The notes: a model not told the origin generated them from the sequence alone. Counted from the stretch's first letter, positions 1,455 to 36,070 are shown. The stretch: DNA of 36,070 bases from a virus (IMGVR_UViG_3300005613_000210:1-36070), one strand, 5' to 3'. Translations and numbers: made by a program.

Positions 1455-4091
1455 ATGAGTGACGTTTACTTAGGAAACCCTTTACTGAAGAAGGCTAATA
1501 CACCGATTGAGTTCACTGAAGAGCAAGTTATTGAATTCTTAAAGTGTAAAGAAGATCCTGTGTATTTTGCTAAGAATTATATCAAAATCGTGTCTCTTGA
1601 TAAAGGTTTGACGCAGTTTAGTCCTTATCATTTTCAGGAAAAGTTAATTAATAACTTTCACGACAATAGGTTTAATATTTGTAAAATGCCACGACAGACT
1701 GGCAAAGCTTTATCGTTAGATACTCCAATTCCAACTCCAAATGGTTGGACAACTATGGGAGATCTTAAAGTTGGTGATAATATTTTATCTCCATCTGGCA
1801 ATTCGGTTTCAGTTACAATGAAAACTGAAACAATGTATAATCACGATTGTTATAAACTATATTTTGATAACGGAGAAGAAATAATTGCTGATGCAAATCA
1901 CTTATGGGAAGTTGATAGTTCATATTGGAGAACTGGAAAAAAAGTTATAACTTCTCAAGAAATATTTGAACAGTATCAAAAAAAATCAGTAAATAAAAGA
2001 GGAAAAGGTGTTCAAGGTTCTCTTTATATTCATAAATCCAATCCAATTAAATTTATCAAAAATAAATTAAATATTGATCCATATTTGCTTGGCGTATGGT
2101 TAGGCGATGGTTATTCATCGGACGGTAGAATCATAGCACATAAAGATGATTATGACTTTTATAAGCAAAAATTTGATGTAGAATATGAAAGAGAATCTAA
2201 TAACTGTATTAGATTTAAGATTAGAAATTTATATTCCAAATTAAAAGAATGTGATTTGCTTAAAAATAAGCATATTCCATTAAAGTATCTTCGTTCTTCT
2301 TACGAAGACAGATTAGAACTTCTTCGTGGATTAATGGATACTGATGGTTCAATCAGAAAAAATAGTAGATCATTTGAGTTCTATCAAAAAAATTATGATA
2401 TAATCTTACAGGTTGTTGAGTTACTTTCTTCTTTGGGCATAAAATCAAATATAAGAAGGAAAGAAATTAAAGAAAATTATTACTATACAGTATCTTTTTC
2501 AACTAAAGAGAGAGTATTTAATCTTCCAAGAAAAATTGCAAATATCAATTCAACAAAATCTGAAAGAAAACAAGAATGTAGACATTATATTCATAAAATA
2601 GAAAAGGTTGATAGTGTACCTGTTGCTTGTATACAGGTTGATAGTGAAGATCATTTATTTTTGTGTGGTAGAACTTTTATTCCCACACATAATTCAACTA
2701 CAGTTGTCTCATACCTCCTTCATTATCTAATTTTTAATGACAGCGTAAATATTGGTATTCTAGCAAACAAGGCAGCAACCGCAAGAGAACTTCTTGGAAG
2801 ACTGGCAACATCTTATGAGAATCTGCCGAAATGGATGCAGCAGGGTATTATTTCTTGGAATAAAGGATCTATTGAACTTGAGAATGGATCAAAAATATTA
2901 GCAGCATCTACTTCTGCAAGTGCTGTTCGAGGAATGTCATTTAATATTCTATTTTTGGACGAATTTGCATTCGTTCCAAATCATGTTGCTGACTCGTTTT
3001 TTGCATCTGTTTATCCTACTATCACATCTGGTAAAAATACTAAAGTTATTGTAGTTTCTACACCTCACGGTATGAATCATTTCTACCGTATGTGGCATGA
3101 TGCTGAAAAGGGAAAAAATGAATATGTTCCGACAGATGTTCATTGGTCCGAAGTTCCAGGAAGAGATGAGGAATGGAAGAAGCAAACTATTGCTAATACT
3201 TCTGAGCAGCAGTTTAAGGTTGAGTTTGAATGTGAATTTTTAGGATCTGTTAATACTCTTATTAATCCATCAAAACTTAGAAATCTTGTATACGAAGATC
3301 CAATAAAGAAAAATGCAGGAATATATGTTTATGAAAATCCAGTAGAGGGAAATAATTACTTAATTACTGTTGATGTTGCTCGTGGAATTGGTAATGATTA
3401 TTCTGCATTTATTGTCTTTGATATTACAAACTTTCCATATAAAGTTGTAGCCAAATATAGAAATAATGAAATAAAACCAATGATGTTTCCAAGCATTGTA
3501 GATGAAGTTGGAAGAGGTTACAATAATGCTTGGTTATTGGTGGAAGTTAATGATATTGGAGACCAAGTTGCAAGCATTTTACATTATGACTTGGAATATG
3601 ACAATATATTAATGGCATCAATGAGAGGTCGGGCAGGGCAGATAGTTGGCACTGGGTTTAGTGGTAAAAAGTCTCAACTTGGAGTGAGAATGACTGCCGC
3701 AGTTAAAAAACTTGGATGCTCCAATCTTAAAACACTCTTAGAAGATGATAAGATATTACTATGTGATTATGATATTATTTCTGAGCTTACTACTTTTATT
3801 CAAAAACACAATTCATTTGAAGCAGAAGAAGGTTGCAATGATGATTTAGCCATGTGTATGGTTATTTTTTCGTGGTTAGTTGCTCAGGATTATTTTAAAG
3901 AAATGACGGATAATGATGTTCGCAAAAGAATATATGAAGAGCAAAAAAATCAGATAGATCAAGATATGGCACCTTTTGGATTTATTTCTGATGGATTTGA
4001 AGATATTAATAAAAGTTTTACTGATGAATCTGGTGATAGATGGTATGTAGATGAATATGGAGATAGAAGTTTTATGTGGGATTATATGTAA
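1455..4091 (+). CDS. 17: Terminase large subunit gp17, interrupted by an intein
   Basis: This is the DNA-packaging motor, an ATPase plus nuclease that docks on the portal. The 878-residue precursor carries a 329-residue intein (residues 85-413); removal leaves about 549 residues against 610 in T4. The P-loop reads PRQTGK, then the intein, then STTVV, so the Walker A motif exists only after splicing. Walker B is NILFLDEFAF (D502, E503, precursor numbering) and the coupling motif is STPHG. The RNase H-like nuclease domain has D640 in VDVARG, an acidic EVNDIG and a late NDDLAM, matching the T4 gp17 metal-binding triad. It is followed by gp18, gp19 and gp20 as in T4. The assignment is secure; the small terminase subunit is not in the window. 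Confidence 0.95.
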   Translation: MSDVYLGNPLLKKANTPIEFTEEQVIEFLKCKEDPVYFAKNYIKIVSLDKGLTQFSPYHFQEKLINNFHDNRFNICKMPRQTGKALSLDTPIPTPNGWTTMGDLKVGDNILSPSGNSVSVTMKTETMYNHDCYKLYFDNGEEIIADANHLWEVDSSYWRTGKKVITSQEIFEQYQKKSVNKRGKGVQGSLYIHKSNPIKFIKNKLNIDPYLLGVWLGDGYSSDGRIIAHKDDYDFYKQKFDVEYERESNNCIRFKIRNLYSKLKECDLLKNKHIPLKYLRSSYEDRLELLRGLMDTDGSIRKNSRSFEFYQKNYDIILQVVELLSSLGIKSNIRRKEIKENYYYTVSFSTKERVFNLPRKIANINSTKSERKQECRHYIHKIEKVDSVPVACIQVDSEDHLFLCGRTFIPTHNSTTVVSYLLHYLIFNDSVNIGILANKAATARELLGRLATSYENLPKWMQQGIISWNKGSIELENGSKILAASTSASAVRGMSFNILFLDEFAFVPNHVADSFFASVYPTITSGKNTKVIVVSTPHGMNHFYRMWHDAEKGKNEYVPTDVHWSEVPGRDEEWKKQTIANTSEQQFKVEFECEFLGSVNTLINPSKLRNLVYEDPIKKNAGIYVYENPVEGNNYLITVDVARGIGNDYSAFIVFDITNFPYKVVAKYRNNEIKPMMFPSIVDEVGRGYNNAWLLVEVNDIGDQVASILHYDLEYDNILMASMRGRAGQIVGTGFSGKKSQLGVRMTAAVKKLGCSNLKTLLEDDKILLCDYDIISELTTFIQKHNSFEAEEGCNDDLAMCMVIFSWLVAQDYFKEMTDNDVRKRIYEEQKNQIDQDMAPFGFISDGFEDINKSFTDESGDRWYVDEYGDRSFMWDYM
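1707..2693 (+). mobile_element. LAGLIDADG intein in the terminase P-loop, class 3 features
   Basis: The in-frame insertion covers precursor residues 85-413 (329 aa). It begins ALSLDTPIPTP and ends FIPTHN, followed by Ser414 (+1). The first residue is Ala, so the usual Cys/Ser/Thr1 nucleophile is absent. Three residues fit the class 3 signature: Trp151 in block B (NHLW, after H149), Cys392 at block F position 4 (VACIQV) and Thr411 just before the terminal His-Asn. The central homing endonuclease has both LAGLIDADG helices: LLGVWLGDG (211-219) and LLRGLMDTDG (289-298). The reading frame is intact, so splicing and nuclease activity are both plausible. Confidence 0.93.
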
Positions 4092-4144: not shown

Positions 4145-6301
4145 ATGCCACTAAATTTAGCATCTCCTGGAATTGTAGTAAGGGAAGTTGATTTAACTAT
4201 TGGAAGAACTACACCTTCTTCAAACAAAGTTGGGGCATTAGTAGCACCATTTGCGAAAGGTCCTGTAGATTTACCTATTTTAGTAGAGAATGAGAATGAT
4301 TTACTAAACACTTTTGGAGAGCCATATTCAACTGATAAGCACTACGAGCATTGGTTGTCAGCATCATCTTATCTTTCTTATGGTGGATCCATGAGAATTG
4401 TGAGAGCTAATGATGCAGATTTAAGAAATGGATTTGTAGGAACTGCTTCAAGTGTCAAAATTGACAGTCTAGATCACTATAATGCTCTTGGATATGATGA
4501 AAATACACTTTCTGGAGTTGTAGTTGCTGCAAGAAATCCAGGATCTTGGTCAAATGGAGTTAGAGTTGCAATCATTGACTCCAAAGCAGATCAAATCCTT
4601 TCAGGTGTTACTACATCAGGCATTGGTGTCGGATATGGAGTAACTCAATCCATTAGTTCTGTGTTACCTGGCGCTGGAACTACTTCAGTTTTAGATGGAT
4701 ATTTGAAGGGAATTATTACTGAAGTTGGTAATGGTAATATTTCGGTAAAATTAATCTCACATGTTTCTGCCGCTGGCACCGAAACTAATGTGGATTATCA
4801 ACAATCGGGAGTTTATGCATTTTCAAACTCTGGAAGTGTAGCAATTCATACTAATGGTCAGTCTTCATCTTACGCAAGCACTTCTTATACATCTCAATTA
4901 GATTGGTTTGACCAACAAACAATCGGTGTTACTACTACCTCCACAATTTCTTGGAATAATATTGCACCACGTCCTGGAACTTCTGCATACGCAGCTGCAA
5001 GAAACTCCAGATTTGATGAAGTACATGTTGTAGTTATTGACTCACTCGGAACTATTACTGGAAATGCTGGCACGATTCTTGAAAAACATGTCAGCCTTTC
5101 TAAGGCATCGGATGCTGAGTTTTCTGTAGGAAGTCCATCGTATTGGAGAAGTTACCTTGCAAACACTTCCGAGTACATTTATGGATTGGGAGCTCCTGTT
5201 GGAGTTGTAACCACAGGATTTAGTTCTGGATTTAATCTTGCTTCTGATGTTGGTTGGGACCAAGATGCTGAAGGTATTATCTTCGCAGCTTCTGGTTCTT
5301 CTACAGATAGTCTTGCTGGAGGTTTAAATTATAACGGCAATTCTAATACTACATCAACTGGTTCTTTAACAGCAACTCTTGCAGAGTTGTCAGATGGATA
5401 CGATTTATTTGAATCTACCGATAATTATACCATTGATTTCTTATTGATGGGATCTGCTGCTTATGATATTTCAACTGCTCAGGCTCTTGCAAATAAACTA
5501 ATTTCCGTTGCGGAATTAAGAAAAGACGCTGTTGCATTCATCTCACCATATAGAGGTGCTGCACTTACAGATACTTCAGATCAAACTGCAGTTGCGATTA
5601 GATCTGCTGCAGACATTACTGATAATGTGCTTTCATTCTATTCATCGGTTGCTTCATCTTCATATGCAATCTTTGATAGTGGATACAAATACATGTATGA
5701 TAGATTCTCAAATACATTTAGATATGTGCCACTAAATGGTGATATTGCAGGTCTTTGTGCTCGCAATGACATCAACAACTTCCCATGGTATTCTCCTGCG
5801 GGAACGACAAGAGGTGCTATCTTAAATGCGGTGAAACTTCCTTACAATCCAACCAAATCACAAAGAGATCGTCTCTACTCTGCAAGAGTAAACTCAGTAA
5901 TTTTCTCTCCTGGAGCAGGAATCATCTTATTTGGCGATAAAACTGGTCTTGCAAGAGCTTCAGCATTTGACAGAATCAACGTGCGTAGATTGTTTATTTA
6001 CCTTGAAAATGCAATTTCTCAAGCTGCTAAAGATGCATTGTTTGAGTTTAATGATGAAGTTACAAGAACAAACTTTGTAAACACTATTGAACCTTTCCTC
6101 CGTGATGTACAATCTAACAGAGGAATCATCGACTATGTTGTTATTTGCGATGAAACAAATAACACTGCTGCTGTGATAGATAATAATGAATTCGTTGCTG
6201 ACATCTACATCAAACCATCAAGATCGATTAACTTCATCGGTCTAACATTCATTGCCACCAAAACTGGTGTTGACTTTGAAGAAGTTATCGGAAACGTTTA
6301 A
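4145..6301 (+). CDS. 18: Contractile tail sheath protein gp18
   Basis: This 718-residue protein (T4: 659) forms the contractile sheath around the tail tube. The N-terminus (MPLNLASPGIVVREVDLT) is the typical sheath start, with the V-x-E-x-D stretch. The C-terminal third carries the conserved sheath core: FNTFRYVPLNG, then INNFPWYSPAG, VNSVIFSPGAG and RRLFIYLENAI. The middle region is Gly/Ser-rich and variable, as expected for surface-exposed sheath domains. A late promoter and a strong AGGAG seven bases before the ATG suit a highly expressed virion gene. The tail tube gene follows 21 bases later. Confidence 0.96.
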   Translation: MPLNLASPGIVVREVDLTIGRTTPSSNKVGALVAPFAKGPVDLPILVENENDLLNTFGEPYSTDKHYEHWLSASSYLSYGGSMRIVRANDADLRNGFVGTASSVKIDSLDHYNALGYDENTLSGVVVAARNPGSWSNGVRVAIIDSKADQILSGVTTSGIGVGYGVTQSISSVLPGAGTTSVLDGYLKGIITEVGNGNISVKLISHVSAAGTETNVDYQQSGVYAFSNSGSVAIHTNGQSSSYASTSYTSQLDWFDQQTIGVTTTSTISWNNIAPRPGTSAYAAARNSRFDEVHVVVIDSLGTITGNAGTILEKHVSLSKASDAEFSVGSPSYWRSYLANTSEYIYGLGAPVGVVTTGFSSGFNLASDVGWDQDAEGIIFAASGSSTDSLAGGLNYNGNSNTTSTGSLTATLAELSDGYDLFESTDNYTIDFLLMGSAAYDISTAQALANKLISVAELRKDAVAFISPYRGAALTDTSDQTAVAIRSAADITDNVLSFYSSVASSSYAIFDSGYKYMYDRFSNTFRYVPLNGDIAGLCARNDINNFPWYSPAGTTRGAILNAVKLPYNPTKSQRDRLYSARVNSVIFSPGAGIILFGDKTGLARASAFDRINVRRLFIYLENAISQAAKDALFEFNDEVTRTNFVNTIEPFLRDVQSNRGIIDYVVICDETNNTAAVIDNNEFVADIYIKPSRSINFIGLTFIATKTGVDFEEVIGNV

Positions 6302-9717: not shown

Positions 9718-10308
9718 ATGAAAGAACATTACGTTTATGCTCTTATAGATCCGATTAATAGAATTCCTTTTTATATTGGAAAGGGTAAAAAAGACAGATG
9801 TTATTCTCACCTAAAAGGATATGCAAATTATAATCAAGACAAATTGAATTGTATTAAAAATATAAGACTTTTAGGATTTGAACCTATAGTATATAAATTT
9901 ATTGAAAATATATCAAATTCAGATTCATTAAAATATGAATCATACCTCATAGAATATTACGAAGAGTTTTTAACAAATAAAAATAGTATTCCTCCAGATA
10001 GAACTGGATGTGAACTATCAGTAGAGCATAAAGAAAAGTTAAGAAATAAAAATCTCAATAAAAAACTCACTGAAGAGCATAGGAAAAAAATTGGATTATC
10101 AAATTCTCATAAACCCAATTATAAAATAGATAAAAAATACATAGATAATCCAATTAAAAGAAATGAGGGATCAAAAAATCCAAACTCAAAAATAATTATT
10201 TGCAATGGTATAGAATTTGGTTGTATGAAAGATGCTTATGAATATTTTAATGTTTCTAAGCAAACATTTAAAAAAAGATATGAGTTTAAATTCGTCTCAA
10301 ATCTTTAA
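9718..10308 (+). CDS. GIY-YIG homing endonuclease between genes 21 and 22
   Basis: A 196-residue free-standing endonuclease. The GIY-YIG module is at the N-terminus: YVYALID followed by FYIGKGKKDRCYSH, with the acidic helix near YESYLIEYY. Residues about 105-130 (SVEHKEKLRNK, TEEHRKKIGLSN) look like tandem NUMOD3 DNA-binding units. The C-terminus (ICNGIEFGCMKDAYEYFNVS) looks like a NUMOD1 helix-turn-helix. Its ATG abuts the gp21 stop with no gap and it has no promoter of its own, so it depends on the prohead operon. The frame is intact. The likely target is the 21-22 junction of related phages. Confidence 0.9.
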   Translation: MKEHYVYALIDPINRIPFYIGKGKKDRCYSHLKGYANYNQDKLNCIKNIRLLGFEPIVYKFIENISNSDSLKYESYLIEYYEEFLTNKNSIPPDRTGCELSVEHKEKLRNKNLNKKLTEEHRKKIGLSNSHKPNYKIDKKYIDNPIKRNEGSKNPNSKIIICNGIEFGCMKDAYEYFNVSKQTFKKRYEFKFVSNL

Positions 10309-28146: not shown

Positions 28147-28197
28147 TATAAAGTTGCTTTTGTATAAATAATTATAGCAAACGCAACTTGGTATTAT
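28143..28197 (+). promoter_or_regulatory. Late promoter inside a hairpin that buries a homing endonuclease start
   Basis: AAGTTGC (28151-28157) pairs with GCAACTT (28183-28189). The stem continues inward (TTTG 28159-28162 with CAAA 28178-28181) and, past one mismatch, outward (28143-28149 with 28191-28197, two G-U pairs). The outer part includes the start codon at 28196-28198. The loop holds an exact late promoter TATAAATA (28163-28170). The left side overlaps the gp44 stop. Confidence 0.8.
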
Positions 28198-28762
28198 GAT
28201 AGAGAAAGGAGCAAAATGGTGGAATAATGGTAAAGTGAATAAAAGGTCAATTGAATGTCCTGGTGATAGTTTTGTTCTTGGTAGGATTTCTTACCCAAGA
28301 AAACCTTTAACTGAAGAAACAAAGGAAAAAATTAAAAAATCTAATAGAGGAAAAATACCTTGGAATAAAGGAAAAACTCAAATATATTCAAATGAAACTT
28401 TAGAAAAAATGCGGCAAGCAAAGGAAAATTACATTCCTTGGAATGCTGGATTAAATTTAAAGGAACTTGGATATGTTGCTTGGAATAAACTTCCAGATAA
28501 TGAAAAAACAAAATATAAACAATATCGTTATTTGGTAGATAAATTAAGTGAGATTAATTATGTTAAACATTATGATATGATTAACCCAGAACATAAACCA
28601 AGAACCAAATGTGGAGTTGATGGTGGTTATCAATTGGACCATATATATCCAGTTTATGAAGGATATATTAATAATATTCCACCAGAAGAAGTTGCTAAAG
28701 TTGAAAATTTAAGAGTTATTCCTTGGGAAGAAAACCAAAGAAAAAAACATAAACTATTGTAA
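28196..28762 (+). CDS. HNH-type homing endonuclease with NUMOD3 motifs
   Basis: A 188-residue protein inserted after gp44. NUMOD3-like DNA-binding repeats occupy the N-terminal half: LTEETKEKIKKSNRGKIPWN, NKGKTQIYSNETLEKMRQAK and a PWNAG repeat. The C-terminal nuclease-like region has YQLDHIYPVYEGYINNI, then VENLRVIPWEENQRKKHK, matching the H....N...N..K spacing of phage HNH-type homing enzymes. It has a late promoter inside a start-codon hairpin, like the 26.0 kb HNH gene, yet the two proteins are not obviously homologous. The frame is intact. Confidence 0.8.
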   Translation: MIEKGAKWWNNGKVNKRSIECPGDSFVLGRISYPRKPLTEETKEKIKKSNRGKIPWNKGKTQIYSNETLEKMRQAKENYIPWNAGLNLKELGYVAWNKLPDNEKTKYKQYRYLVDKLSEINYVKHYDMINPEHKPRTKCGVDGGYQLDHIYPVYEGYINNIPPEEVAKVENLRVIPWEENQRKKHKLL

Positions 28763-28991: not shown

Positions 28992-29829
28992 AACACCCTT
29001 GAGGTACCCTGGAGGCAAGTCTCGTGCTTGCGTCAAGATGGATCCCTATTTTCCAGATCTTCGTAACTATGATGAGTTCCGAGAACCATTTCTTGGTGGG
29101 GGAAGTGTTGCGATTTATATTACCAAGAAATATCCAAACCTAGATATTTGGGTTAATGATTTATACGAACCATTGGTAAACTTTTGGCAGCAACTCCAGA
29201 TGTTTGGTAATGAGATGAAAGACATTCTTACCAATCTTAAATCCTCAAATAGCACTCCAGATAAAGCAAAAATACTTTTTAGTGATGCAAAAATTGCTAT
29301 TAACGATATTCATCAGAATAGTTTAGAGCGGGCATGTGCTTTTTATATCGTTAATAAGTGTAGTTTCAGTGGTCTCACAGAGAGTTCTTCATTTTCAGAG
29401 CAAGCATCTAATTCCAATTTTTCTATGAGAGGAATTGAAAAACTTCCAGAGTATTCTAAACTGATTGAAAAATGGCGTATAACTAATTATTCTTATGATT
29501 ACCTGATGGATGGAAACATGGGTGCGTTTGTGTATCTCGATCCTCCTTATGATATTAAGGATAATCTTTATGGACGTAAGGGATCGATGCACAAAGGATT
29601 TGATCATGATAAGTTTGCTACTGATTGTGATGCTTGTAATGTGGACCAACTTATTAGTTACAACTCAGACCAATTGGTAAAAGACCGTTTTAAGAATTGG
29701 AATGCCGCTGAGTTTGACCTTACATATACAATGAGGTCGGTTGGTGAATATATGCGTGAGCAAAAGAAACGTAAAGAACTACTACTTTTTAATTATGGAA
29801 TTGAAGGATTGGTTAAAGTCGATCAATAA
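28978..29829 (+). CDS. dam: DNA adenine methyltransferase (Dam, D12 class)
   Basis: A 283-residue N6-adenine methyltransferase. The AdoMet site is RYPGGKSR near the N-terminus and EPFLGGGSVAI (motif I). DLYEPLVNFW follows, and the catalytic motif IV is YLDPPYDI (D188-Y191). The target-recognition middle contains NKCSFSGLTESSSFS, typical of the D12 class. It probably protects phage DNA from restriction or modulates it; the recognised site, often GATC in this family, cannot be read from sequence. It overlaps both neighbours (14 and 35 bases) and sits inside the clamp-loader cluster, between the 44 and 62 genes. Confidence 0.93.
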   Translation: MKSLKTPLRYPGGKSRACVKMDPYFPDLRNYDEFREPFLGGGSVAIYITKKYPNLDIWVNDLYEPLVNFWQQLQMFGNEMKDILTNLKSSNSTPDKAKILFSDAKIAINDIHQNSLERACAFYIVNKCSFSGLTESSSFSEQASNSNFSMRGIEKLPEYSKLIEKWRITNYSYDYLMDGNMGAFVYLDPPYDIKDNLYGRKGSMHKGFDHDKFATDCDACNVDQLISYNSDQLVKDRFKNWNAAEFDLTYTMRSVGEYMREQKKRKELLLFNYGIEGLVKVDQ

Positions 29830-30175
29830 AACGAAACAGAACCTGATTGAAGAAGACCCCTCACTTGAGAAGGAATATCCTCCTTATGTTATTAATCGCT
29901 GCCTTTCGGGGGAGATAGATTGTATTATGTTTACTAATGAAATGAATAAGTATCATTTTTTACCTAAAAAGATGCAATATGATTTTTATATAAATAGTCT
30001 GAGGAAAAGGACGAGATTTTCTCCCTGGCTCCGACAAGATAAAATCAAAGATCTTGAATATGTCAAAAAATATTATGGTTATAGTAATGAAAAGGCAAAA
30101 CAGGCTTTGAAAATTCTTACCAAAGAACAACTTAACTTTATTAAATCGAAATTTGAAACTGGAGGGAAAAAATGA
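29795..30175 (+). CDS. 62: Clamp loader small subunit gp62
   Basis: A 126-residue protein. I start at the ATG giving MELKDWLKSINKTKQNLIEE; the longer frame runs back into dam and is rejected. It matches the gp62 type known in T4-like cyanophages, which is shorter than T4 gp62 (187), with PPYVINRCLSGEIDCIMF, NEMNKYHFLPKKMQYDF, LRKRTRFSPWLR and YYGYSNEKAKQAL. It overlaps dam by 35 bases and regA by 4. Confidence 0.88.
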   Translation: MELKDWLKSINKTKQNLIEEDPSLEKEYPPYVINRCLSGEIDCIMFTNEMNKYHFLPKKMQYDFYINSLRKRTRFSPWLRQDKIKDLEYVKKYYGYSNEKAKQALKILTKEQLNFIKSKFETGGKK

Positions 30176-30612
30176 GTGTCGTTCAAGAACCTGAAGTGAA
30201 GTGGTCAACAGACCAAATGGTTGAAGTTATTCTTCATGAACCTGATGATTTTCTGAAAGTTCGAGAAACTTTAACTCGCATTGGAGTTGCATCAAGAAAG
30301 GAGAAAAAACTCTATCAATCGTGCCATATTCTTCATAAGCAAGGTCGTTATTTTCTGGTTCATTTCAAAGAACTTTTTGCTTTAGATGGTAAACATGCTA
30401 ATCTTACGGTAAATGATGTACAGCGTAGAAATCGTATCGCTCAACTTCTTGCTGATTGGGGATTGATTGAGATTGTTGATGTCAGTAAAATTGAAAACAT
30501 TGCTCCATTAAACCAAATCAAAGTTTTGGCTTATAAAGATAAGCAAGATTGGATTTTGGAAACAAAATATAATATTGGTGCAAAAAAGAAAAAGGTTGAG
30601 GAAACCGAATAA
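30172..30612 (+). CDS. regA: Translational repressor RegA
   Basis: A 146-residue RNA-binding protein (T4: 122) that represses translation of early mRNAs by binding near start codons. The body aligns with T4 RegA: VEVILHEPDDFLKVRETLTR, then KKLYQSCHILHKQGRYFLVH, LLADWGLIEIV and a C-terminal KYNIG. There is an N-terminal extension of about 17 residues and a Lys-rich C-terminal extension. Position after gp62 is as in T4. A terminator-promoter junction follows its stop. Confidence 0.95.
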   Translation: MSVVQEPEVKWSTDQMVEVILHEPDDFLKVRETLTRIGVASRKEKKLYQSCHILHKQGRYFLVHFKELFALDGKHANLTVNDVQRRNRIAQLLADWGLIEIVDVSKIENIAPLNQIKVLAYKDKQDWILETKYNIGAKKKKVEETE

Positions 30613-30617
30613 GAATG

Positions 30618-30659
30618 TGGGGACATCAACATCCCCATTTTTTATGTTTCTTGTATAAT
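30618..30659 (+). promoter_or_regulatory. Terminator fused to a -10 box (upstream of hsp20)
   Basis: TGGGGA (30618-30623) pairs with TCCCCA (30632-30637) over an 8-base loop and is followed by TTTTTT. TATAAT (30654-30659) comes after a pyrimidine-rich TTTCTTG. No clear -35. The 60-base leader to hsp20 ends in a strong AAAGGAG. Confidence 0.7.
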
Positions 30660-30719
30660 TATTAGTGGATGCCGAAAGGGTCCATACAATCAAACCTCGC
30701 TTAAAAAGGAGTTACTAAA

Positions 30720-31154
30720 ATGACTAACATGACAAGGTATACTGCTGCAGATCTTCCACAGTTGATGGATAGAATCACACGTAATAGTATTGGAATGGAT
30801 GAATATTTTGACCGTTTATTTAATCTTCACGAAACTACATCAAATTATCCACCATATAATTTTATCAAAGTAAGTAATGTTGAGTCAAGATTAGAACTTG
30901 CCCTTGCTGGATTTAGAAAAAAAGAAGTTAATGTCTACACTCAAGATGGTAAACTTTTTGTCGAAGGTCAAAAAGAAGATAAAGAAACGGAAACTAACTA
31001 CCTGCACAAAGGTCTGGCTCAACGGAGTTTTACTAGAGCGTGGACACTCTCTGATGACACGGAAGTTAGATCAGTTGATTTTGAGGATGGGCTTTTAACA
31101 GTTGTTTTGGGTAAAGTTATTCCAGAACACCATAAGAGAAAAGACTGGTTCTAA
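30720..31154 (+). CDS. hsp20: Small heat-shock protein (Hsp20)
   Basis: A 144-residue alpha-crystallin-domain chaperone. The domain spans about residues 43-135, with IKVSNVESRLELALAGFRKK, VNVYTQDGKLFVEGQK, FTRAWTLSDDTEV and the terminal GLLTVVLGKVIPE (the G-x-L strand). Gene hsp20 between regA and 43 is typical of T4-like cyanophages and is absent from T4, so it supports the host inference. It has its own promoter and strong ribosome site, and a terminator follows. Proposed roles are stress protection and scaffolding during infection. Confidence 0.92.
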   Translation: MTNMTRYTAADLPQLMDRITRNSIGMDEYFDRLFNLHETTSNYPPYNFIKVSNVESRLELALAGFRKKEVNVYTQDGKLFVEGQKEDKETETNYLHKGLAQRSFTRAWTLSDDTEVRSVDFEDGLLTVVLGKVIPEHHKRKDWF

Positions 31155-31751: not shown

Positions 31752-31968
31752 AGAAGTTCCTTCAGAACTTGGTGAACCTGATTGTAAAATTATAAGACCT
31801 TTTATTATCAAAGATCCTGAAATAACTGGGTTAGGTTTTACTCTAGAATCTTGGTTATGTGATTATACGAATCAAAGTGACTTTATGATTCATTCTGATA
31901 AAATTCTTACTATCTGCGATCCAAATCAAAATCTTATTGAAAAATATTCACAAATGAATGAAAAATGA
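31693..31968 (+). CDS. Small Sm-like (predicted) protein, third copy
   Basis: A 91-residue protein whose start lies within the preceding gene; a second in-frame ATG at 31708 would shorten the overlap and begins exactly at the first predicted strand. The pattern is IVLLNNIILLGEIEEVPS, CKIIRPFIIK, FTLESWLCDYT and MIHSDKILTICDP, ending in LIEKYSQM, again the small-barrel plus C-terminal helix layout. The next ATG overlaps its stop by 4 bases. Confidence 0.5.
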   Translation: MENLKMIVLLNNIILLGEIEEVPSELGEPDCKIIRPFIIKDPEITGLGFTLESWLCDYTNQSDFMIHSDKILTICDPNQNLIEKYSQMNEK

Positions 31969-32699
31969 AAGTATTAAGTATTGATCTTGATTACATAGTT
32001 GATTCTAAATTTGAAATTTATGATGATAAATTATTTAATTCTAATTGCTTTGTAAGGTGGGAAAATTACTTTGAATTTTTTCCTTTTTCTGAAGAAGATT
32101 TAAAAATTAATGAATCAAATTTAATTTATTGTTACAGTACATTCTTAAAATCTATTAAAAATTGTGATAAGGTATCATTTGGATATGATCACGATAGTAT
32201 ATTGTATGATATTGCAGATTCTGATAATATTGATATAATTAATATCGATCATCACGACGATTTTTTTCACGGATTTTACAGAACAATGTCTGATGATCTA
32301 GATTTTACAAATCGATTAGAGTATCGAAATTTGTCCGAATACAATTCTGTTAGTGAAGGAAATTGGGGTGCTTGGCTTAATAGTAAAGGAAAATTAAACT
32401 CTTTTACTTGGATTGGAAATCATTATAGTGAAAATAAAATAAGAAATGAAATAAATCAAAATTATTGTAAAAATTATAATAATTTTGAAAAAGAAGATTA
32501 TAATTTTAAGGACTATAATTTCGATAGAATTTTTGTATGTCTTTCTCCTTCATATTTACCAAAAAATCATTGGCATTATTTTTCAATGTTTATTATTGCT
32601 TATGAAAATTTTTGGGGAAAAAATGCAGTAATACATAATCAAAAATATGAAACATATATTAGATACAAAGAGTATAGTGAAAAAATAATCAAAAGGTAA
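31965..32699 (+). CDS. Possible UPF0489/arginase-fold protein
   Basis: A 244-residue protein. Its landmarks are an N-terminal LSIDLDY strand, VSFGYDHDSILYDI, an acidic His cluster INIDHHDDFFHGF, EGNWGAWL and FTWIGNHYSE. This combination resembles the UPF0489 group, whose fold is related to arginase and histone deacetylases and whose His/Asp cluster could bind metal. Coding sequence is very AT-rich. It lies directly before the DNA polymerase gene. The family call is tentative; the activity is unknown. Confidence 0.5.
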   Translation: MKVLSIDLDYIVDSKFEIYDDKLFNSNCFVRWENYFEFFPFSEEDLKINESNLIYCYSTFLKSIKNCDKVSFGYDHDSILYDIADSDNIDIINIDHHDDFFHGFYRTMSDDLDFTNRLEYRNLSEYNSVSEGNWGAWLNSKGKLNSFTWIGNHYSENKIRNEINQNYCKNYNNFEKEDYNFKDYNFDRIFVCLSPSYLPKNHWHYFSMFIIAYENFWGKNAVIHNQKYETYIRYKEYSEKIIKR

Positions 32700-32713
32700 T
32701 TTTACAATTTATT

Positions 32714-34798
32714 ATGTCTAATCGTTTTTATACTAATGTGCAAATGGTCGGGGACCACTTTTTGGTTCGCGGATATGAGGATGGAAAGCACGTTATGTTT
32801 CGAGACCAATTTAATCCAACTCTTTTCGTCCCATCAAATAAAAAAACAAAATATAAAACTTTAGAGGGTGAATATGTTGAATCAGTTCAACCAGGCACTG
32901 TTCGTAGTTGTAAAAGGTTTATACAAAGATATGAAGACGTAGAAAATTTTAAGATTTATGGTAATACTGGGTACATCTATCAGTACATTTCGGATAAATA
33001 CTCAGAAGATGAAATTAAGTTTGATACTAAAAAAATAAAAATATCAACGATTGATATTGAGGTTGCATCAGAAAATGGATTCCCAGATGTAGAATCTGCT
33101 GCAGAAGAAGTTCTTTTGATTACAATTCAGGATTATTCTACAAAACAAATAAGAACTTGGGGTAGAGGACCATTTGTAAATAAGCAGAATAATCTAATTT
33201 ACAAAGCATTTGACACTGAATATGATTTATTGAATGATTTTATTCATTGGTGGATGATTGAAGAAAATACTCCAGAAGTTGTAACTGGATGGAATAGTGA
33301 ACTGTATGATATTCCTTATCTTGTCCGAAGGGTTGATAGAGTTCTTGGCGAGAAATTAATGAAAAGAATTTCTCCTTGGGGTCTTGTGACGGAAAAGGAA
33401 TCATATATTTCCGGTCGTCGCAATATCTCTTATGATGTTGGTGGAATTACTCAACTTGATTATCTTAATCTATATAAAAAATTTACTTATAAGGCACAAG
33501 AATCTTATCGATTGGATTACATTGCAAGTGTTGAACTTGGACAAAAGAAACTAGATCACTCTGAGTTTGATACTTTTAAGGATTTTTATACAAATGGTTG
33601 GCAAAAATTTTGCGAGTATAACATAATTGACGTGGAACTTGTTGACCGTCTGGAAGACAAGATGAAGTTGATTGAATTGGCAATTACTATGGCATATGAT
33701 GCCAAAGTAAATTATGGTGATGTTTTTTCTCAAGTTAGGATGTGGGATACAATTATCTACAATTATCTTAAGAAAAGAAATATTGTAATTCCTCCGAAAG
33801 AAAAAATTGAAAAAAATTCTAAGTATGCTGGTGCTTATGTTAAAGAACCAATTCTCGGACGTTATGATTGGATTGTAAGTTTTGATTTAAATTCAATGTA
33901 TCCTCATTTGATTATGATGTTTAATTTGAGTCCAGAAACTCTTTTAGATAAAAAATGTCCTAATGTTTCTGTCACTAAGATTTTGAATAAAGAATCTGAT
34001 TTAAGTGATTATAAAAACTATGCAGTATGTCCAAATGGATCTATGTATAGAAAAGATGTGAGGGGAATTTTACCGGAACTTATGGAAAAAATGTATAATG
34101 ATAGGGTAATTTTTAAGAAAAAGATGATCGAAGCAAAGGAGAAATATGAAAAAACCCCTACAAAAGAACTAGAAAAAGAAATTTCCAGATGTAATAATAT
34201 TCAAATGGCAAAGAAAATTTCTTTGAATTCCTGTTATGGAAGTTTAGGCACCCCATACTTTCGTTTTTACAAGTTGGAAAATGCAGAAGCAATTACTCTT
34301 TCTGGACAAGTTGCAATTCGTTGGATTGAAAATAAACTTAATCAGTATATCAATAAAGTTTTAAAAACAAAAGAGGTTGATTATATTATTGCATCTGATA
34401 CTGATAGTGTAGTTGGTGATACTGAAGTTTATATCAATTCAGAAAAAATAAAAATTGAAGATATTTATAATGATGTCTGTGATGAAAATAATTTGATATG
34501 TAATCGGGATGAGAATGATTATATTCATAATGTATCTGAATTAAATTTATATACAAAATCTTATGATGGAGAAAATCTTGTTGATGATAAAATTATTCAT
34601 ATTATGAAACATAAAGTTAAAAAGAAATTTTATAAAGTTATTGTAAATGGAAACGAAGTTATTTTAACTGAAGATCACTCATTAGTTGTGGAAAGATGTG
34701 GTGAATTAATTTCAGTTAAACCTCAAGATGTTATTGAAGATGATATTTTTATAAATATTAATGATACTGGTCTGTGTCTCAAAACAACTTATAAATGA
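32714..34798 (+). CDS. 43: DNA polymerase gp43 N-terminal part fused to a split-intein N-half
   Basis: A 694-residue protein: 564 residues of family B polymerase plus a 130-residue intein N-fragment. The exonuclease is complete: IDIE (D114, E116; T4 D112, E114), GWNSELYDIPYL and YNIIDVE. Polymerase motif A is SFDLNSMYPHLI (D391) and motif B is KKISLNSCYGSLG. Motif C is cut: residues 562-564 are DTD and intein Ser565 follows at once. The rest of the palm and the thumb are encoded separately from 35.8 kb. Full-length polymerase needs the two proteins to associate and trans-splice. T4 gp43 is 898 residues, so about one third is missing here. Confidence 0.95.
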   Translation: MSNRFYTNVQMVGDHFLVRGYEDGKHVMFRDQFNPTLFVPSNKKTKYKTLEGEYVESVQPGTVRSCKRFIQRYEDVENFKIYGNTGYIYQYISDKYSEDEIKFDTKKIKISTIDIEVASENGFPDVESAAEEVLLITIQDYSTKQIRTWGRGPFVNKQNNLIYKAFDTEYDLLNDFIHWWMIEENTPEVVTGWNSELYDIPYLVRRVDRVLGEKLMKRISPWGLVTEKESYISGRRNISYDVGGITQLDYLNLYKKFTYKAQESYRLDYIASVELGQKKLDHSEFDTFKDFYTNGWQKFCEYNIIDVELVDRLEDKMKLIELAITMAYDAKVNYGDVFSQVRMWDTIIYNYLKKRNIVIPPKEKIEKNSKYAGAYVKEPILGRYDWIVSFDLNSMYPHLIMMFNLSPETLLDKKCPNVSVTKILNKESDLSDYKNYAVCPNGSMYRKDVRGILPELMEKMYNDRVIFKKKMIEAKEKYEKTPTKELEKEISRCNNIQMAKKISLNSCYGSLGTPYFRFYKLENAEAITLSGQVAIRWIENKLNQYINKVLKTKEVDYIIASDTDSVVGDTEVYINSEKIKIEDIYNDVCDENNLICNRDENDYIHNVSELNLYTKSYDGENLVDDKIIHIMKHKVKKKFYKVIVNGNEVILTEDHSLVVERCGELISVKPQDVIEDDIFININDTGLCLKTTYK
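34406..34795 (+). mobile_element. N-half of a split intein in DNA polymerase
   Basis: 130 residues starting SVVGDTEVYIN, a class 1 block A with Ser1 as nucleophile. Block B is VILTEDHSLVVE with the T-x-x-H motif. The fragment ends CLKTTYK at a stop codon. No LAGLIDADG motif is present. The opening SVxGDTEV and the TEDHSL block resemble archaeal family B polymerase inteins. Confidence 0.93.
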
Positions 34799-35823
34799 TG
34801 AGAAAACATAGAAGAAAACAAACTATTGAAGAAAATGTTGAGTATTACTGTAAAAAAAATAATTTTCAACTTACACTTCAACAAAAAAATCAAATTAAAG
34901 AATGTTTTTTATTATATGAAAATAAATTTTCATCAAAACATAAACTATGTGAATATATAAGTTCTTTTATTAACTATGATTTAAAATTTTGGAAACAAAG
35001 ATTAAATAGACTATTGAAAATTAATTTAAAGGGTGTTACTAAAAAGAAATTTTTGCTTTTATATGGTAAAGATCTTGCGGAAAAAAAATGGAAAAATTAC
35101 ACAAATAAGCAAGCAATAGTTAATAGTTATGACTATAAAAAACAAAAATATGGGTGGACCGAAGATCAATTTGAAAAATATAACAAGTCAAGATCTATTA
35201 CTCTTGATAATATGATTAAAAAATATGGAAAAAATAAAGGAAAAATAAAATATGAAAGTTATGTTGAAAAACAAAGGTATGCTGGAATTTCTTTAGAATA
35301 TTTTATTGAAAAATATGGAGAAATTGATGGAACAATAAAATATCAAAAAACTTGCAATTTAAAAGCATTAACTCTTGACAATTTTATAAAAAAATATGGC
35401 GAAGAACTAGGAAGAAAAAAGTATAGAGATTGCTATGACAATAAACAATTTTTTTATTCAAAATCATCTCAAGAATTGTTTTGGAAAGTGAAAACTGAAA
35501 ATTGTTATTTTGCTGAATATAATAAAGAGTTTGGACTATTGACTGATACTCAATATTATTTTTATGACTATGTTGATACTAAATTAAAAAAATGTATTGA
35601 ATATAATGGAGATTACTGGCACTGTAACCCCAAATTTTATGAATCAAATTACAAAACTCACTATGGATATACTGCCAAAGAAATATGGGAAAAAGATGAG
35701 ATAAAGTTAAATTTCATAAGATCAAAGGGTTATGATGTTATGATAATATGGGAGTCTGAATATTTGCAAATCCCAGATATTATAATTAAAAAAATTGAGG
35801 ATTTTTTGTATGATAAAAATTGA
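34795..35823 (+). CDS. Vsr-like (EDxHD) homing endonuclease between split-intein halves
   Basis: A 342-residue protein overlapping the intein N-half stop (ATGA) and the C-half start (14 bases). Residues about 136-218 hold three repeats of the form TLDNFIKKYGEELGRKKY (approx. 136-162, 166-189, 193-218), with a weaker one near 82-106; these are probably DNA-binding. The C-terminal nuclease region is YFYDYVDTKLKK, then CIEYNGDYWHCNPKFY (E269, D273, H276), IWEKDEIKL (D301) and VMIIWESEY (E320), the Vsr-type E-D-x-H-D pattern. Endonucleases of this type are known between split-intein gene halves in environmental phage DNA (fractured genes). It lacks its own promoter and relies on coupling. Confidence 0.9.
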   Translation: MMRKHRRKQTIEENVEYYCKKNNFQLTLQQKNQIKECFLLYENKFSSKHKLCEYISSFINYDLKFWKQRLNRLLKINLKGVTKKKFLLLYGKDLAEKKWKNYTNKQAIVNSYDYKKQKYGWTEDQFEKYNKSRSITLDNMIKKYGKNKGKIKYESYVEKQRYAGISLEYFIEKYGEIDGTIKYQKTCNLKALTLDNFIKKYGEELGRKKYRDCYDNKQFFYSKSSQELFWKVKTENCYFAEYNKEFGLLTDTQYYFYDYVDTKLKKCIEYNGDYWHCNPKFYESNYKTHYGYTAKEIWEKDEIKLNFIRSKGYDVMIIWESEYLQIPDIIIKKIEDFLYDKN

Positions 35824-36070
35824 GTGTTTGGGTGAACTTGAGTGTGATGTTTATGATTTAGAGACTGAAAAAACCAACAAATTTTTTGGAAATGATATAT
35901 TGGTTCACAATTCTATCTATCTTAATCTTGGACCTCTTGTTAATAAGTTTTTTAATAATAAAGTTGGGAACAAGAACGAGATTGTAGAACTCTTGGATAA
36001 GATATGTAAAGAGCAGTTTGAACCGTTCATCGAATCCAGTTATGAAGAACTTGCGTCGTATGTCAATGCA
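35810..36070 (+). CDS. 43: Split-intein C-half fused to the DNA polymerase C-terminal part (partial)
   Basis: The frame starts with ATG at 35810 and runs off the window. The first 34 residues (35810-35911) are an intein C-fragment: block F CDVYDLETEKTNKFF and block G NDILVHN. Ser follows as +1 residue (35912-35914). The extein then reads SIYLNLGPLVNKFF, which joins to the upstream DTD to restore motif C as DTDSIYLNLG. A further 52 residues of palm and thumb region are visible, including KEQFEPFIESSY. The start codon lies inside the endonuclease gene, in another frame. Confidence 0.93.
   Translation, partial: MIKIECLGELECDVYDLETEKTNKFFGNDILVHNSIYLNLGPLVNKFFNNKVGNKNEIVELLDKICKEQFEPFIESSYEELASYVNA

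Follow-up and report, generated by a model that had tools for sequence, protein, structure and literature searches.

The window, by which we mean the whole stretch of viral DNA analysed here (36,070 nucleotides), very probably carries a mobile fractured-gene cassette in the gp43 DNA polymerase gene of a T4-like cyanophage. The polymerase is encoded by two ORFs that each carry one half of a split intein, IntN followed by IntC in the expected order, the exteins join exactly, and an endonuclease gene stands between the halves (Table 1). From the analyses taken together we infer that this copy would splice, cut and home. By its sequence the window phage is assigned to the T4-like cyanophages and is Kyanoviridae-like: the order regA, hsp20, gp43 is common to the window and Synechococcus phage S-SRM01, and the gp43 N-extein is 74% identical to that of Prochlorococcus phage P-SSM2. 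Comparison of both halves with known inteins and with cyanophage gp43 bore out a preliminary description of this DNA, with matches to PDB 9HTH for the intein and 81% N-extein identity to S-SRM01.

Table 1. Parts of the interrupted gp43 gene and of its flank in the window
Feature	Position	Strand	Basis
gp43 DNA polymerase N-extein, 564 aa	32714..34405	+	phrog_262, E 7.7e-238; Pfam DNA_pol_B and exonuclease
Intein N-fragment (IntN), 130 aa	34406..34795	+	PDB 9HTH, E 2.5e-18; invariant residues in 11 loci
EDxHD/Vsr-type endonuclease gene, 342 aa	34795..35823	+	Alignment; model and fold; phrog_22677, 9e-64
Intein C-fragment (IntC), 34 aa	35810..35911	+	PDB 9HTH, E 3.3e-9
gp43 C-extein from Ser+1 (SIYLNLG...), 53 aa	35912..36070	+	phrog_262 and phrog_1918; 96% DNA identity to intein-less L174
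Probable co-conversion tract, 565 bp	33841..34405	+	76% against empty-site sisters; 93-96% on either side

The N-half of gp43 is a single ORF (32714-34798, 694 aa), in which the polymerase part, comprising the exonuclease and the palm with both catalytic motifs (DLNSMYP and DTD), ends in VDYIIASDTD; residue 565 is the intein Ser1, and the insertion thus lies exactly after DTD. IntN begins with SVVGDTEV, has its block X histidine at position 69 and its block B (TEDH) histidine at position 91, and terminates at a TGA (34796-34798) that overlaps the start of the endonuclease ORF (ATGA at 34795). At the other extremity of the cassette, the ATG of IntC (35810), preceded by GAGG, lies within the 3' end of the endonuclease gene, with an overlap of 14 bp. 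IntC contains VYDLE as block F and ends in ILVHN, directly followed by Ser+1 (35912) and the palm sequence SIYLNLGPLV. As the contig ends at 36070, 159 bp past the insertion, the window does not contain the complete C-half. The preliminary description gave all three lengths of the cassette parts correctly, as it did the exact junction to DTDSIYLNLG, and its fractured gene with a split intein and a Vsr-like endonuclease gene between the halves is right. It placed the beginning of the object at 34382, however, whereas the object begins at 32714; and the fusion of the C-half to SIYLNLG is as it stated, but what it called the rest of the palm amounts to only 53 aa before the contig end.

Judged on these sequence features, the split-intein fracture of gp43 is not a chance arrangement. 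PHROG polymerase families match the gp43 sequence of both halves, and 9HTH matches both intein fragments. Pfam Intein_splicing also matches the two halves (1.5e-6 and 7.8e-5), each under the curated cut-off when taken alone. Ser1, the block X His, TxxH, the block F Asp and His-Asn-Ser are invariant among 11 to 12 diverse loci.

The same layout was found on three other contigs, L085, L006 and L005, with IntN in two of them and a complete C-half in all three. L085 and L006 contain IntN, the endonuclease gene, IntC and a complete C-half (305 and 303 aa), the N-extein being complete in the former and partial in the latter; L005 contains the endonuclease gene, IntC and a 305-aa C-half, its IntN being cut off by the contig end. 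The IntC of the window is 94 to 97% identical to those of L085 and L005. Since the complete C-exteins measure 269 to 271 aa, a spliced gp43 of about 835 aa is predicted; the uninterrupted gp43 of S-SRM01 (2502 nt) has 833 aa. The gene order is also that of L007 and of the phages Aes508, CP21, PTm1 and VPALA. An assembly artefact, whether a chimera put together from two phages living side by side or a spurious interruption of a continuous gp43, might be suspected from the closeness of the contig end to the insertion and from the abrupt change of identity at both edges of the tract described below. Nevertheless, the identical order of pieces, with similar overlaps between the cassette genes, on three separate contigs, the intact frames throughout and the presence of the layout in named phage genomes make such an artefact extremely unlikely. 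No second copy of the window phage came up when the IntC/C-extein junction was searched for by exact match.

Two fragments of gp43 would be translated separately from the overlapping genes. Once IntN and IntC have assembled, an N-O acyl shift at Ser1, transesterification to Ser+1 and Asn cyclisation would follow, so that DTD is ligated to SIYLNLG and an uninterrupted polymerase is produced, by the Ser1/Ser+1 mechanism of the Aes123 PolB1 intein (PolB1 being the name of the gp43 split intein in the literature). Because the break sits within the palm, it is plausible that trans-splicing is necessary for replication, as the preliminary description supposed. Alternatively, no ligation takes place, and the polymerase fragments keep their intein pieces and form an active enzyme by non-covalent association. 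An active two-piece polymerase, with no intein at the break concerned, is described for Aeromonas phage 25, whose gp43 consists of two chains, gp43A and gp43B, that co-purify and are active (PMC2988022), and in the window it is the N-half that carries both catalytic palm motifs. We nevertheless hold non-covalent assembly to be very improbable: all the splicing residues are kept, IntC is the most constrained part of the cassette (dN/dS 0.03-0.14), and close homologues, the split PolB1 inteins of Aes123 and CP21, have been shown in vitro to trans-splice (PMC11923092, PMC12707363).

The endonuclease, too, is under purifying selection, with dN/dS values of 0.20 to 0.27 in all six comparisons among four cyanophage-type copies. 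Between the window and L085, silent divergence is 0.84 for the endonuclease and 1.04 for IntN, against 1.60 for the gp43 N-half, and these lower values suggest transfer. Distance matrices for 8 loci gave P values of 0.03 to 0.09 for the co-inheritance of IntN, IntC and endonuclease, too weak a result to be relied on.

An AlphaFold model of the endonuclease (pLDDT 85, pTM 0.49) consists of a string of helices with four two-helix 'KYG..G..KY' repeats (about residues 83-215), presumably the DNA-reading part of the modelled protein, followed by a compact alpha/beta nuclease domain. The best fold match of this domain in Foldseek is the catalytic domain of I-Bth0305I (PDB 3R3P), with a probability of 0.98 and a TM of 0.62 on the target length but an E value of no better than 0.21, and Vsr comes third; a profile search also reaches Vsr, though weakly (E 0.05), and phmmer with the endonuclease alone did not find a solved relative. 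E245, D258, E269, D273, H276 and D301 are the invariant residues of the nuclease domain, four of them (E245, D258, H276 and D301) in nine homologues. The Vsr residues opposite D258, H276 and D301 in the alignment are those we take to be catalytic. On the model, the protein has an EDxHD/Vsr-like fold with conserved E, D, H and D, the Glu of the motif being uncertain. Two distant relatives only were met in a genome scan, both in bacterial bins.

The question arises as to how the cassette entered gp43. Intein-less relatives, with 155 empty sites among the loci surveyed, read ASDTDSIYLNLG or similar across the junction, in agreement with the exact extein joint. Three of them, L174, L175 and L176, which come from three different metagenomes and have precise empty sites, are close sisters of the window, and we compared the alleles along the gene. 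The window is 93% identical to the sisters over positions 32714-33825 of gp43 and 96% identical beyond the insertion, over 35912-36070, against 76% in the tract directly 5' of it (Fisher P = 2.6e-24). Identity shifts sharply at both edges of this tract, and its right edge lies at most about 6 bp from the insertion. Local variation of the evolutionary rate is a poor explanation, because the three sisters are 97 to 100% identical to each other within the tract, which moreover encodes well-conserved palm sequence. The GC content of the window tract (0.288) is nearer to that of the cassette (about 0.23) than is that of the sister tract (0.329). Of 140 other gp43 loci, 131 are nearer in this tract to L174 than to the window, and the best match to the window tract among the fetched loci reaches 76.5%. 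The simplest reading of these alignments is that an unsampled gp43 donor would have given the cassette together with 565 bp of 5' flank to an L174-like gp43. We infer this direction, since gain by the window is more probable than a precise removal of the cassette from each of the three sisters.

Homing with one-sided co-conversion would be expected to leave such a tract. As a member of the EDxHD homing family, the endonuclease would cut intein-less gp43 near the DTD|S codons, and repair from an occupied copy would carry IntN, the endonuclease gene and IntC jointly, plus some flanking donor DNA; in the window phage the co-converted flank would be about 565 bp long 5' of the insertion, with hardly any 3' of it. 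We lean towards this explanation, namely that a fairly recent natural homing event brought the three parts as one unit, by break repair, into an empty cyanophage gp43 and left a one-sided co-conversion tract. The comparison with the intein-less sisters thus lends indirect support to the earlier proposal that the endonuclease spreads the whole cassette. The window would then also provide the first report of such a polymerase cassette in the T4-like cyanophage lineage.

Alternatively, ordinary homologous recombination between cyanophages may have brought in the cassette, with the endonuclease as a passenger devoid of current homing activity. Further mosaic blocks are present upstream in the same contig when it is aligned with a sister (about 82% identity over 29000-30800 and about 65% over 32000-32700), so the tract might be one more product of such exchanges. 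Endonuclease loss does occur, moreover, as in Campylobacter phages the F379 match is in two pieces and the CC_R7 locus is without the gene. However, the tract edge at about 6 bp or less from the insertion, the purifying selection on the endonuclease and its invariant catalytic residues argue against this alternative. We therefore consider recombination with a passenger endonuclease a minor, though appreciable, possibility, and retain homing as our preferred reading. When L085 was compared with its nearest cassette-less relatives, L178 to L180, no clear tract was seen, identity being just about 80 to 85% on both sides.

The window cassette is not new in kind; what is added here is the mapped comparison with empty sites and the one-sided tract. 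The annotation of Aes508 already mentions an 'intein-containing split DNA polymerase precursor', and the gene between the halves is given as 'similar to very short patch repair (VSR) endonuclease'. Tenacibaculum phage PTm1 is annotated similarly, and Campylobacter phage CP21 and Vibrio phage VPALA have the same order. In Pseudomonas phages MIJ3 and PA5oct a split intein occupies the same polymerase site, but the endonuclease gene between the halves is annotated as HNH and is unrelated to that of the window; the split polymerase B of MIJ3, with its intein and HNH endonuclease gene, was published in 2019 (PMC6892783). Given the examples in Aes508, PTm1, CP21, VPALA and MIJ3, and the in vitro splicing of the Aes123 and CP21 inteins, the suggestion of the preliminary description that a DNA polymerase case might be unprecedented fails.

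The closest comparison is with the PolB1 inteins of Aes123 and Aes508 (JN377894, JN377899), present in the PolB genes of T4-like Aeromonas phages; that of Aes123 has been engineered, and 9HTH is its structure at 1.38 A. They share with the window the gene, the DTD|S site, the canonical split, Ser1/Ser+1 and the block X His, which is described in the literature on PolB1 split inteins; Aes508 also has the Vsr-type endonuclease gene between the halves. In contrast, identity to the window is only about 32% for IntN and 36% for the endonuclease, and the Aeromonas gp43 has an additional break with a Seg-like gene and a group I intron. The intein of the window also differs from the Aes123 type by six non-catalytic cysteines, four in IntN and two in IntC, and therefore belongs to that type by mechanism without being literally cysteine-less; the inteins of CP21, LCGC14 and GOM-OPS-1 have one Cys each (PMC12707363). 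Charge differs as well: both window fragments are net acidic (-11 for IntN and -5 for IntC), whereas Aes508, CP21, PTm1 and VPALA combine a net basic IntN with an acidic IntC, a difference that weighs against the proposed mechanism. CP21, although from another phage lineage, resembles the window in site and order, with IntN about 40% and the endonuclease 38% identical. As for I-Bth0305I, it has been reviewed among the homing endonucleases of mobile group I introns, and not with a split intein. At the locus of Campylobacter phage CC_R7 (L167, 5028-5486), the same intein is present at the same site as a contiguous mini-intein without an endonuclease gene, a natural fused counterpart. The states of CC_R7, F379, CP21 and MIJ3 indicate that endonuclease genes have been gained, lost and exchanged at this site around a single intein lineage.

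With tblastn, the intein was detected among 50,697 phage records in Aeromonas, Campylobacter, Tenacibaculum, Vibrio, Pseudomonas and Prevotella (Lak) phages, and was not found in the cyanophage records of that set, which include several hundred Synechococcus/cyanophage gp43 genes. For T4-like cyanophages, our evidence of the intein thus comes from uncultivated contigs alone.

Fractured genes with a split intein and a free EDxHD/Vsr-like endonuclease gene between the halves were reportedly described by Dassa et al. in 2009 from marine environmental DNA, in other host genes than here (gp41, NrdJ, IMPDH and others). To our knowledge, the mobility of such genes has so far been inferred mainly from the presence of the endonuclease gene. 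Splicing and structure of the PolB1 intein family are already published. Occupied and empty alleles of nearly the same cyanophage gp43, together with a mapped one-sided tract, now make the homing of a split cassette directly testable, with a defined donor sequence, a defined target sequence and an expected tract. The window intein also adds one more to the Ser/Ser split inteins with an ordinary split site, and might serve in protein ligation.

Genes of the homing-endonuclease type are plentiful in the window. The gp17 terminase large subunit ORF (1455-4091, 878 aa) contains a LAGLIDADG domain at about residues 282 to 362, before the ATPase part, and this is a second endonuclease-bearing intein of the phage, in this case probably a contiguous one. 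A GIY-YIG domain gene (9718-10308, 196 aa), flanked by those for the prohead protease and the scaffold, is likely to encode a free-standing homing endonuclease, and directly after the gp44 clamp-loader gene a NUMOD3-motif protein of 188 aa (28196-28762) is probably another. A search for tRNA and Rfam RNAs, such as group I introns, found none in the window. The gene adjoining gp43 upstream (31965-32699, 244 aa) has no family match; as it is about 65% identical to its sister copy while its neighbours are at 92 to 97%, it looks exchanged or fast-evolving. Finally, downstream of gp43 in L006, at the position of the S-SRM01 primase/helicase, the end of the gene at 4197-5567 resembles intein block B (IKITLKSGKTIIVSKEHVFP), and this gene may possibly represent a second interrupted replication gene.
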